Virus record (IMG/VR): IMGVR_UViG_3300036945_000386 | Span: 1-36,928 of that record | Strand: one strand, 5' to 3' | DNA: 36,928 nt | Source: a virus | Shown here: one piece after another, positions 28,703 through 36,928 of the stretch | Layout of the letters: each line of letters begins with the position of its first letter | Numbering within the stretch: position 1 is the stretch's first letter | The notes under the pieces: generated by a model | The model's input: the letters and a program-made list of their open reading frames with translations, nothing else | Database searches by the model: none | Told to the model about the DNA's origin: nothing | Translations under genes and position numbers: made by a program

Positions 28703-28777
28703 TGGAGCGGCGAGGGAGGATCGAACTCCCGACATCTTGCTTGGAAGGCGAGCGTTCTACCTCTGAACTACCGCCGC
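28703..28777 (-). tRNA. tRNA-Gly (anticodon UCC)
   Basis: 75 nt including an encoded CCA (complement at 28703-28705). The acceptor GCGGCGG pairs with TCGCCGC (one G-U). The T-arm GGGAG-TTCGATC-CTCCC is perfect. The anticodon loop CTTCCAA gives UCC. The anticodon stem CTCGC/GCAAG has a C-A mismatch at the third pair. It may supply GGA/GGG decoding for the glycine-rich fibre genes. Confidence 0.93.
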
Positions 28778-30748: not shown

Positions 30749-30782
30749 TTCCCCAGACCCGCGTCAGTAAGGGTCTGGGGAA
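30749..30782. terminator. Strong hairpin in the divergent early region
   Basis: TTCCCCAGACCC (30749-30760) pairs perfectly with GGGTCTGGGGAA (30771-30782), 10-base loop. There is no long U-run; AATTC follows. It could be a terminator, attenuator or insulator between the minus promoter and the 252-aa gene. The 329-base gap 30600-30928 otherwise holds only the promoter/operator and the GGAG site before the GTG at 30929. Confidence 0.6.
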
Positions 30783-30928
30783 TTCATATTGGTAAACGAT
30801 AAAACGTGTGGCAATTACGACACGTATTCGAACTGGTTCACCGAATTCGCAAATCTCTTGGAGATTTTGGTAGCCAAACAGGTTGACCCCAGATTAAGTA
30901 GTATCACGAACATTTTGGAGAACCATTC

Positions 30929-31687
30929 GTGATCTACGATTTTGACCAAACCGGCGGCCTGACCGAAGAAGACTTCATGCACAAACTTCGCCTGAAAATG
31001 GAAGACCCAGCGTCGGCGAGCGCGCTCGCCTACAAGTATCCGTGGTTTCATTCCGCCTGTTCGGACTTCCTCTACCGAGCCAAGACCATCGCGAACGCAG
31101 AGCCGTTCCCCGACGTTGACAAGATCACGGCGGTTCAGGTCAACCTTTTCGACAACTGGCCCAACGGTGTCAGAGTCGAAAACTTCCCCAACCAATATAC
31201 GGCTTCTGTCGAGGTCTGGATTTCCGAGAAAATCAGCATCGAACGGAAGGGCGACTACCAGCACAAATCCAACGTGATCCTGATGAACGCCAAGAACCTG
31301 ACCGAGAGCGTCAATCGGAACCTCAAGAAGAAATCCATTCGAGCCGACTGGGGAAACGACCTGCTGAACTTCGCGGGTGGCATGACCGAGGATCACCTGA
31401 CGGGCATCATCACGACCAAGGGACTGAGCGGAAAAAACGGAGCCGGTGGGACGAAGCTGCACGCCAACCAAGCCGTGCTGGCCACGATGAAGCCGGGTGA
31501 ACCGGAGGGCTTGGCTCTTCGTCTCTTCCTGAACGGGAAGACGCTCGACCTTCCGCCCTTCGTCAAGACCACGGCATCCGGCAAAAAACTTCCGGCCAAA
31601 GTTGTTGTTCAATCACGGCTCGACGTGATTGGTTTCTCTGCCGACTGGTCCACGAAGTGGGACACGAGGCCTGTTGTGGTCGAATGA
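30929..31687 (+). CDS. Unknown early-region protein (252 aa)
   Basis: Starts at GTG 30929 with GGAG eight bases upstream. Begins MIYDFDQTGGLTEEDF and ends KWDTRPVVVE. Mixed alpha/beta, soluble, basic patches (NRNLKKKSIRADW), Gly-rich loop (GKNGAGGTKLHANQ). No motif I can name; not a polymerase, helicase or recombinase by visible motifs. It sits just before the candidate origin repeats, so a DNA-binding or replication accessory role is possible but only inferred from position. Confidence 0.75.
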   Translation: MIYDFDQTGGLTEEDFMHKLRLKMEDPASASALAYKYPWFHSACSDFLYRAKTIANAEPFPDVDKITAVQVNLFDNWPNGVRVENFPNQYTASVEVWISEKISIERKGDYQHKSNVILMNAKNLTESVNRNLKKKSIRADWGNDLLNFAGGMTEDHLTGIITTKGLSGKNGAGGTKLHANQAVLATMKPGEPEGLALRLFLNGKTLDLPPFVKTTASGKKLPAKVVVQSRLDVIGFSADWSTKWDTRPVVVE

Positions 31688-31697
31688 GGTCGAAGAC

Positions 31698-31757
31698 CGA
31701 ATCTCTTGTATAATGGAAGAAAGAACTTACAAAGAAACAATTTATACAAGAGATTCG
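31698..31757. repeat. Perfect 16-bp inverted repeat with A-rich 28-base spacer
   Basis: CGAATCTCTTGTATAA (31698-31713) and its exact reverse complement (31742-31757). The spacer is almost free of T (GGAAGAAAGAAC, AAAGAAACAA). It begins 10 bases after the stop of the 252-aa gene. TTGTATAA in each arm could also act as -10-like convergent elements. A third TTGTATAAT lies near 32190. Candidate cruciform, origin component or transcript end. Confidence 0.75.
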
Positions 31758-31848
31758 ATGCTCGACGTGCCGACGAGCAAATCTCGATTACAAAGCGGTT
31801 TTTCAAACCGGGGCAGAGGGAAGAGCCTCGTTGCACTCGGCCAAACGA

Positions 31849-31955
31849 GAACTCGCGTTGCTCGTCCTCGAAGACAAAAGAACTCGCGTTGCTCGTCGGA
31901 AGAAAAAGGTTTGCCTCGTCGGAAAGAAAATTTGGCTCGTGGCAAAAGAGAGTTT
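31849..31955. repeat. Iteron-like direct repeats, candidate replication origin
   Basis: GAACTCGCGTTGCTCGTC occurs exactly twice (31849-31866, 31880-31897; period 31). The core TTGCTCGTCGGAAGAAAA recurs in degenerate form near 31889, 31911 and 31933. No credible gene covers 31688-31964. Together with the adjacent 16-bp inverted repeat this looks like an iteron-type origin. No experimental or family evidence. Confidence 0.5.
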
Positions 31956-31964
31956 TGCCGGGGC

Positions 31965-32168
31965 TCAACCGGCGATTGCACCGAGCCGAACCAGAGCCGC
32001 GTCCCATTCCGCCTTGGTCCCACCGACATGATCTCCGTTCAGTGCCCAGAAATCATCGGTGTCTTGTTCGAGTTCACCGTAGAGCCAGTAACGCAGGCGG
32101 ACATGCGTCTCGCCATTGACTTGTTTGGCTTCGATGATTTGGGCTGGTTCGCCGCCGAAAGTGATCAT
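31965..32168 (-). CDS. Small hypothetical protein
   Basis: 67 aa starting MITFGGEPAQIIEAKQVNGE; compact alpha/beta with HVRLRYWLYGELEQD and a C-terminal ALNGDHVGGTKAEWDAAL. AGGAGAG lies upstream of its ATG. It is the only minus gene among plus early genes and ends beside the repeat cluster. Function unknown; regulation of the origin is possible by position. Confidence 0.65.
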   Translation of the reverse strand: MITFGGEPAQIIEAKQVNGETHVRLRYWLYGELEQDTDDFWALNGDHVGGTKAEWDAALVRLGAIAG

Positions 32169-32223
32169 GTCGTCTCTCCTTGTGGTGTGCTTGTATAATA
32201 GCAGGCGAAATTCTTTTGTCTAC

Positions 32224-32250
32224 CCATCTGAAATATTTTTGTTCAGATGG
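32224..32250. promoter_or_regulatory. Operator-like inverted repeat upstream of the early plus promoter
   Basis: CCATCTGAA (32224-32232) and TTCAGATGG (32242-32250) are perfect 9-bp arms with a 9-base A/T-rich loop. The right arm touches the -35 at 32251. Between divergent genes at 32168 and 32321, so probably a control site. Confidence 0.6.
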
Positions 32251-32278
32251 TTGACACCCAATTCCAGTGTGCTATTGT
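32251..32278 (+). promoter_or_regulatory. Sigma70 promoter for the 32321-33149 cluster
   Basis: -35 TTGACA (32251-32256, consensus), 16-base spacer, extended -10 TGCTATTGT (hexamer TATTGT 32273-32278). Predicted start near 32285, 36 bases before the ATG at 32321. Confidence 0.75.
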
Positions 32279-34146: not shown

Positions 34147-34178
34147 AAGGCCCAGTCCCACGAAGACTGGGCCTTTTT
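34147..34178. terminator. Rho-independent terminator between convergent genes
   Basis: AAGGCCCAGTC (34147-34157) pairs with GACTGGGCCTT (34165-34175), followed by TTTTTCTT. It terminates the HNH-AP2 transcript and, in reverse, the 82-aa minus gene whose stop is at 34180. Confidence 0.88.
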
Positions 34179-34179
34179 C

Positions 34180-34428
34180 TTATGCGGACGCGCCTGCGGC
34201 GAGAATGGCCTGTAGTTCGTCCCGCACGACCTGAGTTTCATCGTCGAGGACTCCGACATAATGTTCGTAGATGTTGCGAAGTTCCATCCCCGTTTCATTC
34301 CAGTTCACCGGGTCACGACCATTTCGGAAACAATCGTTCTCGAAGTAGTGCATCGCCTGCTCGATTGCCGTGAGGGCATTATCGAGATCGACAATCGGAG
34401 TAGATATAGTAGGCATCTTAGCAGCCAT
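34180..34428 (-). CDS. Small helical hypothetical protein
   Basis: 82 aa when started at MAAKMPTISTPIVDLDNAL (ATG 34428, GGAGG five bases upstream); an ATG 12 bases earlier is possible. Helical, acidic, ending LQAILAAGASA. No motif. It has its own promoter flanked by inverted repeats, which suggests tight control, e.g. a small regulator or inhibitor, but this is inference. Confidence 0.7.
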   Translation of the reverse strand: MAAKMPTISTPIVDLDNALTAIEQAMHYFENDCFRNGRDPVNWNETGMELRNIYEHYVGVLDDETQVVRDELQAILAAGASA

Positions 34429-34898: not shown

Positions 34899-36287
34899 AT
34901 GACCTACGAACTGATCGAACGAAACACTCTGAGGCTCTGGCAAGCGGTTTCCAAAGCAAACCCGGTGAACCTCGAAATGCAACGAGCCCAGCGATGGGTG
35001 GAAGATGCGTGTCTCGGACTTCGACCCGGCGTGATGCTGAGCGGCGAAGCTGGTGCAGGCAAAACACATTTGGTTGACGAAGCCATGGCGGCTGTTACCG
35101 CCAAGGGCGTGAAGCCTATTCGTCGAATTCTGCGGGACGACCGTATGCTCTTGGAGACCATCCAAGACAGCAAGGGCGTGACTCCGATTATTCTGGAAGA
35201 GTGTGATGCACTGTTCCGGTCGCCCAACCAGATCAACATCCTCAAGATGGCGACGGACGACGGCAAGCGTGCCCCGAAGATGATCATGACCAAGATCGGC
35301 ACTGTCCGGTTCGGAGCCCCGATCATCCTCGTGACCAATTCGAACCCAAGTGACGACCGCAACTTCGACCGTAAATTGGTTGACGACATTGCGGCGATCC
35401 GTTCGCGTATGCCGCCCATCCACATCAAGACCGATCCTCTTGCCATGTGGGAATATACGTGCTATCTGGCCATCGTCCACAACCTGATCCGGCACTCGAA
35501 GTTCGTCAACAACGGAAAGATCGAGCGTCGTTCTGTGACGGCCGACCAACAGAACACGGTCCTGCGGTTCTACGCCGAAAACCTGTTCCGTCTTGGGGAC
35601 CGTTCGCCCCGTGGTCTGACCCGGATCGCACAAGCGGTCTACCTGACGAAGAACAAGAGCCAGCGTGACACTGACCTGAACGCTCTTCTGATTCGGACGC
35701 GGGCCGATGCGGAAGCCATGGCTCCTGACGGATGGCCGCCCTACGTTCCGACGCTGTTCGGTCCTGACGGTCCCCGTGGCACGTCGGAGCCCATCGTTCT
35801 CGGCAAACCGGCACCCACGGTGTCCGTGAAGCCCACGCGTGTTCCGAAGAGCCCGATGTCGATCCCCGAAGCCTTGGAAGTGATGGAGGGCGTGGTCGCT
35901 GACCTGACCCCGACTGAACTGCGTAACCGGGCCACGGGCAAGATCATCCCGATCACGCCCTTGGTGAAAGATGTGTTTCGTATGGCTGGCCTCGGCGGCG
36001 GCTCGGCGAAATACATCGCGGAGGAAATCCCGTATTCGGTGGCCACGATCCGATCCATCCTCCACGCTCTGGTGGATGCGGGCGTTCTCGAAATGATTAC
36101 TGTGAAGGCCATGCAACAGTTCTTGCCGGTTACGGGCCTTGAGGGGTCGAAGCTGGCTCTTGAGCGGACCCTGATGGATCAGCCGCTCATCCCGAAGATC
36201 ACGAAAGTCGATCCGAAGAAGAAGCTGTCCAAGTATTGGGAAGCAATCCCCGACCTTAAGGCCCAACCCCCGCAAGAAATAGTGTAG
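34899..36287 (+). CDS. AAA+ ATPase with C-terminal winged helix (candidate replication initiator or helicase loader)
   Basis: 462 aa. Walker A GEAGAGKT (49-56); Walker B PIILEECD (96-103), with Glu100-Glu101 where Asp-Asp/Glu is usual; sensor 1 ILVTNSN (N147); Arg finger candidates in IRSR (168-170). Residues about 353-402 form a winged helix (YSVATIRSILHALVDAG as recognition part). This matches a phage/plasmid AAA+ family with 'DALF.SP..INILK' signatures. It is the only recognised candidate replication enzyme here. A role at the candidate origin near 31.7-31.95 kb is inference; packaging or transcription roles are alternatives. Confidence 0.75.
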   Translation: MTYELIERNTLRLWQAVSKANPVNLEMQRAQRWVEDACLGLRPGVMLSGEAGAGKTHLVDEAMAAVTAKGVKPIRRILRDDRMLLETIQDSKGVTPIILEECDALFRSPNQINILKMATDDGKRAPKMIMTKIGTVRFGAPIILVTNSNPSDDRNFDRKLVDDIAAIRSRMPPIHIKTDPLAMWEYTCYLAIVHNLIRHSKFVNNGKIERRSVTADQQNTVLRFYAENLFRLGDRSPRGLTRIAQAVYLTKNKSQRDTDLNALLIRTRADAEAMAPDGWPPYVPTLFGPDGPRGTSEPIVLGKPAPTVSVKPTRVPKSPMSIPEALEVMEGVVADLTPTELRNRATGKIIPITPLVKDVFRMAGLGGGSAKYIAEEIPYSVATIRSILHALVDAGVLEMITVKAMQQFLPVTGLEGSKLALERTLMDQPLIPKITKVDPKKKLSKYWEAIPDLKAQPPQEIV

Positions 36288-36487
36288 TCCCACCAAGTCT
36301 CAAGGAACGGTGCAGCGTCGTCTAACCAGACACGAAACATCGTTCCTTGGGCGAATGGGGCTTCATCGTCCCACAGATCATTGAACGCGAGTTTCTGGTC
36401 TGTGGCCCATTCGACGAATACTTCGCCCGCCGGTTTATCGAACCTTAAGACGATGTTTGCCTTCACTGGGGCGGGAACCAGAGCCAC
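36179..36487 (-). CDS. Hypothetical protein overlapping the AAA+ gene in antisense
   Basis: 102 aa from a GTG at 36487, 25 bases inside the end of the membrane-protein gene; an in-frame stop lies just upstream, so no earlier start exists. Strand-rich with VEWATDQKLAFNDLWDDEAPF and FRVWLDDAAPFLETWWDY. The last 109 bases run opposite to the AAA+ 3' end. The first two thirds look like real protein; the tail is less convincing. If real, it forms a minus-strand pair with the membrane protein. Confidence 0.5.
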   Translation of the reverse strand: MALVPAPVKANIVLRFDKPAGEVFVEWATDQKLAFNDLWDDEAPFAQGTMFRVWLDDAAPFLETWWDYTISCGGWALRSGIASQYLDSFFFGSTFVIFGMSG

Positions 36488-36928
36488 GGTTTCTTAGGAG
36501 AAGAGACGGCGAGCAAGTATCCAGCGATGTCCTGTGCTTTCTCGGCAAGGTTTTCTTGGATTTGTTCGTCAGAAATATTGTGCGAAGAGGGCTTGGCACG
36601 GTCGAGATAAGTTGCTACCATGATGCCGACTGGCATCTTCCTGATGTTCAGGATGGGGGTCGCGTAGATTACATCGGACCCGTTCTCAGTCATCATGTTA
36701 TACATCGTCGGATTCTTGAACTCTTCGACGAACATCTTGGCAGCGGTGGGCTCCAAGCCCGGTCGCCACATATTTTTCAGAAGATCATTGAAGTTGGACA
36801 AGGGCATTTTGGAAGCCCCTCTCCCCGGCTGCATGTCAGCAGTCATGGCCACACCCTTACGCATGGCGAGGAACCGAAGTTCCGAGTAAGCAAAGGGCAG
36901 TCCGCTCATATCGCGAACACCATTCGTG
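36463..36928 (-). CDS. Membrane-anchored phage protein, C-terminal part (gene starts at 396)
   Basis: Continuation of the 244-aa gene whose start is at 396; bases 36802-36928 duplicate 1-127. This part contains SGLPFAYSELRFLAMRKGVA, a central PLSNFNDLLKNMW, an IYATPILNIRKMPVGIMVATYLD strand-helix pattern reminiscent of a GAF/PAS-like fold, and a C-terminal helix plus PKKPWLWFPPQ. The 148-aa reading frame beginning at 36909 is only an internal ATG. Confidence 0.8.
   Translation of the reverse strand, partial: TNGVRDMSGLPFAYSELRFLAMRKGVAMTADMQPGRGASKMPLSNFNDLLKNMWRPGLEPTAAKMFVEEFKNPTMYNMMTENGSDVIYATPILNIRKMPVGIMVATYLDRAKPSSHNISDEQIQENLAEKAQDIAGYLLAVSSPKKPWLWFPPQ
36802..36928. repeat. Terminal direct repeat (copy 2)
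   Basis: Exact second copy of bases 1-127. Removing one copy gives a 36,801-bp circle. Confidence 0.93.

Follow-up and report, generated by a model that had tools for sequence, protein, structure and literature searches.

Replication origins of the lambdoid phages follow a layout in which an AT-rich tract that undergoes melting is next to the iterons (PMC7466680, PMC5043065), and both lambda ori in gene O and P22 ori in gene 18 consist of at least four short repeats adjoining such a tract within the early region (PMC5043065, PMC7466680). Published descriptions of lambda and of iteron origins (PMC7466680, PMC5043065, PMC10797057) provided the basis for the comparisons made here. In lambda the iterons are inverted repeats spaced about 20–24 nt apart within the initiator gene. 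Iteron plasmid origins of the RK2, R6K, P1 and F type combine direct repeats with an AT-rich stretch and have no coding function, and DnaA boxes are usual in these plasmid origins. To our knowledge, lambda-type origins need no DnaA box. Bidirectional intrinsic terminators, a further kind of element found at convergent gene junctions, place hairpins right behind both stop codons. The 277-nt stretch described here shares features with each of these systems, and our favoured reading, to which we assign a probability of roughly 0.43, is that a small podovirus-like phage, relying on the replisome of its host, has its replication origin here. The stretch departs from lambda in that its units are degenerate, lie 21–34 nt apart and occupy non-coding DNA, with no O- or P-like protein recognised, and from the iteron plasmids in that no Rep protein was recognised and in that it has no DnaA box, no strict helical phasing and two exact repeat copies only.

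The window analysed here, 36,928 bases long, is the whole of an IMG/VR virus record, the ends of which (1–127 and 36802–36928) carry an exact 127-base direct repeat. Because 127 is a common largest assembler k-mer, this repeat is probably no biological terminal repeat and instead indicates that the genome, of about 36.8 kb, is circular or circularly permuted. The − strand carries the portal, scaffold, capsid, terminase and virion genes, and the few genes of the + strand encode a 252-aa protein, a 172-aa protein, a short possible helix-turn-helix protein (a very weak assignment), an HNH protein and an AAA+ protein. The proteins of the record that were scanned include no recognisable polymerase, primase, helicase or integrase; since no DNA polymerase, primase or helicase was found in this set, host enzymes are expected to serve an origin somewhere in the genome. 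The record also holds a phage-borne tRNA-Gly with anticodon TCC (28703–28777, − strand), and a 12-bp inverted repeat, TTCCCCAGACCC, with a 10-nt spacer (30749–30782) lies in the divergent region that precedes the 252-aa gene. Back-to-back sigma-70-like promoters are located at 32222–32195 on the − strand and 32251–32278 on the + strand, and between them, at 32224–32250, lies a 9-bp operator-like palindrome, CCATCTGAA-N9-TTCAGATGG. A canonical bidirectional intrinsic terminator with an 11-bp stem, a 7-nt loop and a T-tract (34147–34175, the feature extending to 34180) sits between the HNH gene and the − strand gene at 34180.

Exactly 277 nt (31688–31964) separate the end of the + strand gene at 31687 from the end of the − strand gene at 31965, which bears out the proposal in the initial annotation of about 280 bases without a gene in the early region, with the correction that the flanking genes are convergent and the AAA+ gene lies some 3 kb away. 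The + strand neighbour (30929–31687) is the 252-aa gene, an orphan early gene for which no homologue was found, and the − strand neighbour (31965–32168) is a 67-aa orphan gene convergent with it. Gene bounds, codon-usage scores and the lack of an Rfam match together mark the intervening stretch as non-coding and as a candidate origin or regulatory element. A protein-coding role was rejected on the grounds that frames crossing the 277 nt score below zero for codon usage and match nothing in Pfam or PHROG, and a known structured RNA was likewise rejected, as 31600–32250 gave no Rfam match at the gathering threshold or at E ≤ 1. A conserved RNA or protein in the region had been put forward as evidence that would speak against an origin; neither was found, which does not in itself settle the origin question, and nor does the skew result given below. 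Three record-wide extremes coincide within these 277 nt: in the whole record no perfect inverted repeat or short-range direct repeat is longer, and no 60-nt duplex is less stable.

The perfect 16-bp inverted repeat with an A-rich spacer is present where it had been described, with arms at 31698–31713 and 31742–31757 separated by 28 nt. It is the longest perfect inverted repeat of the record with a spacer of at most 80 nt; when the whole record was dinucleotide-shuffled 60 times, the maximum was 14 bp. Pairing extends imperfectly to 25-nt arms (31689–31713 and 31742–31766, 88% complementary), and as a DNA hairpin the repeat has an energy of −18.5 kcal/mol (z −5.2). Its arms and spacer make up the AT-richest 60 nt of the record (31700–31759, 44/60 A+T), and the duplex-stability minimum falls here whether 40 or 60 nt are considered, giving an AT-rich, DUE-like unwinding element, with the first exact repeat about 90 nt away. 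The inverted repeat also bears on a different explanation, in which the stretch is the 3′-end region of two convergent transcripts, the hairpins behind the 252-aa and 67-aa stop codons end, protect or process the mRNAs, and the repeats are incidental spacer. Both convergent stop codons do have a hairpin 1–5 nt downstream, as at a bidirectional terminator: the extended inverted repeat (31689–31766) starts 1 nt past the 252-aa stop codon, and a 7-bp hairpin, GGCAAAA-GAGAG-TTTTGCC (31941–31959), lies 5 nt past the 67-aa stop codon on the − strand. RNA of the stretch folds better than shuffled sequence on both strands (z −3.5 and −4.2), and the other convergent junctions of this phage have inverted repeats too, in the form of the terminator at 34147–34175 and a 9-bp repeat at 36301–36349. 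However, once the inverted repeat is left out, the fold is barely above chance (z −2.0 and −0.9), and the 16-bp repeat itself is unlike the textbook terminator of the same phage, having an A+T-rich stem, a long 28-nt loop and a U-tract on neither strand; the terminator scan passed over it. Transcript ends would account for where the inverted repeat and the small hairpin lie but leave both the direct repeats and the stability minimum unexplained, and we consider this explanation possible but somewhat unlikely.

The direct repeats, which an origin would account for along with the melt-prone stretch and the early-region position, lie on the 67-aa side of the inverted repeat. Two identical copies of the 19-bp sequence AGAACTCGCGTTGCTCGTC occur 31 nt apart on the + strand (31848–31866 and 31879–31897), and no exact repeat at such close range (within 60 nt) is longer anywhere in the record; shuffling the whole record 15 times gave values of 9–13. 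A second pair, CTCGTCGGAAGAAAAA, at 31892–31907 and 31915–31930, is 88% alike. At a word length of 11 nt with up to two mismatches, the degenerate unit TTGCTCGTCG recurs five times in the stretch, with four direct copies on the + strand (31857–31942, starting at 31857, 31888, 31911 and 31932) of the form TTTGCTCGTCG, the reverse complement of CGACGAGCAAA, and one inverted copy, CGACGAGCAAA, on the − strand at 31771–31781. This count of five compares with at most four in 40 shuffles and at most four in 26 other sampled segments, although at 12 nt with three mismatches 2 of the 26 sampled segments equal the stretch. The repeated and degenerate units reported by the initial annotation are where it had placed them, but exact copies number just two and the remainder are degenerate; set against the iteron requirement of at least three closely similar, initiator-bound repeats, there are two exact 19-bp copies, and five units only at 11 nt with up to two mismatches. 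The spacings of 34, 31, 23 and 21 nt are not multiples of the helical turn, and spread the units over as much as about 137 degrees at 10.5 bp per turn.

Further observations weaken the specific designation of the locus as an iteron-type origin, while its general anatomy remains comparable to that of lambda and P22: a single non-coding stretch next to an orphan early gene combines repeats and a hairpin with AT-rich DNA prone to melting. GC skew, which had been suggested as a check, has no significant turning point (p=0.75), and AT skew gave p=0.28. The DnaA box TTWTNCACA occurs nowhere in the record, and no recognised initiator family was found among the early proteins scanned. To calibrate these comparisons, the same scan for repeats and duplex stability was applied to lambda and P22, the origins of which are annotated. 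Each of the two origins yielded four units spaced 14–24 nt apart, and in a genome-wide ranking by instability their AT-rich DNA fell in the top 4% for lambda and the top 2% for P22; the 277-nt stretch yielded five units and ranked first for instability. Repeat count by itself is unspecific, as scan intervals equal to or above the focus numbered 18 of 524 in this record, 42 of 689 in lambda and 27 of 593 in P22 (3–6%), and the top scorers among the 18 in this record lie in repetitive coding genes. The case for an origin accordingly rests on the coincidence of independent features and on no single one of them, and because these features were picked post hoc, no proper p-value can be attached to their combination.

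If the stretch is an origin, two early proteins are candidates for acting upon it. The AAA+ ATPase gene (34899–36287, + strand, with a possible start at 35034) encodes a protein with a possible C-terminal helix-turn-helix, assigned from matches to AAA_16 (E 2e-4, below the gathering cut-off), HTH_36 (E 0.01) and phrog_1250 (E 3e-8), a family of unknown function; these matches are weak. By these similarities the AAA+ protein is a candidate helicase loader or initiator. The 252-aa protein matched no family in the profile collections searched, and structure prediction without an alignment gave unusable models for two proteins (mean pLDDT 32 and 36). A plausible sequence of events is that a phage-encoded initiator, which may be the 252-aa or the AAA+ protein, would bind the TTGCTCGTCG units at about 31857–31942 and at 31771–31781, that the strained initiator complex would open the AT-rich inverted-repeat segment at 31700–31759, and that the AAA+ protein could help to load the host helicase. 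A bolder version, which we judge unlikely, holds that the locus is the origin of an undescribed, self-contained initiation module outside the known initiator families, in which the orphan 252-aa protein, the AAA+ protein with its possible helix-turn-helix, or both recognise the units and recruit the host replisome. As an origin, the stretch would be an ordinary kind of element inside an unusually orphan early region; it would locate the start of DNA synthesis and point to two candidate proteins in a phage without a recognisable replication gene, making the orphan early region directly testable. A 3′-end or control region would be ordinary.

Short motifs shared with neighbouring control regions raise the prospect of an operator-type element, in which a phage DNA-binding protein would occupy the inverted-repeat arms and related sites nearby and coordinate the early genes, perhaps by looping. 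CTTGTATAAT has exact copies at just two positions, 31705 and 32190, the second of which overlaps the −10 end of the promoter at 32222–32195 on the − strand, and AATCTCTTG is found only in both arms and at 30852, as part of a 7-bp palindrome that precedes the 252-aa gene. These motifs are short, however, and at one mismatch CTTGTATAAT is found three times against 0.7 expected, a count reached by 2 of 100 shuffles. The inverted repeat also sits behind genes and not at a promoter, and an operator, while accounting for the shared arm motifs, leaves the TTGCTCGTC units unexplained; we consider this reading decidedly unlikely. The readings are not fully exclusive, as an initiator that also controls its own region could yield both an origin and shared arm motifs.

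The structural genes have relatives at 25–46% identity, whose early regions are unrelated to that of this phage. A portal-based search gave 80 loci with a best identity of 40%, and in the 43 of these whose whole records were searched, structural genes are shared but no relative of the 252-aa or AAA+ protein was found. Searches with the 252-aa, AAA+ and 172-aa proteins, each in its own set of collections, returned no relative; empty single-sequence scans are weak evidence of absence, as they depend on exact 8-residue peptides. In the collections searched, the stretch itself has no DNA relatives in phages, where, as in plasmids, only chance matches of 27–33 nt were obtained, and the element is not conserved in any sequence found. 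A search of IMG/VR for the inverted-repeat pattern returned five stretches with differing spacers, of which the one examined (L004) is AT-rich, unrelated sequence, and the 18-mer repeat had a single match there, within a coding gene of another phage. Literature retrieved for the repeat core consisted of unrelated papers.

Matches in bacteria bear on the last alternative, that the stretch is another repeat element such as a partition or packaging site, a structured RNA, or a decaying intergenic repeat of the CTCGC..GCTCG type, which some bacterial genomes contain. Intergenic arrays in three unrelated bacterial MAGs likewise have two neighbouring copies of ACTCGCGTTGCTCG, and across 149 genomes of one phylum the 14-mer is about 2–3 times commoner than its reversed control. 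Yet a generic bacterial repeat was rejected because the match is limited to the 14-bp core, with flanks and context that differ, and neither a ParA/ParB-like protein nor an Rfam match was recognised; such an element is in our estimation decidedly unlikely. Tandem intergenic arrays built on CTTCGACTCGCGTTGCTCGCTCAGG were additionally observed in planctomycete MAGs (L095:3109–3460 and L094:2723–2776).
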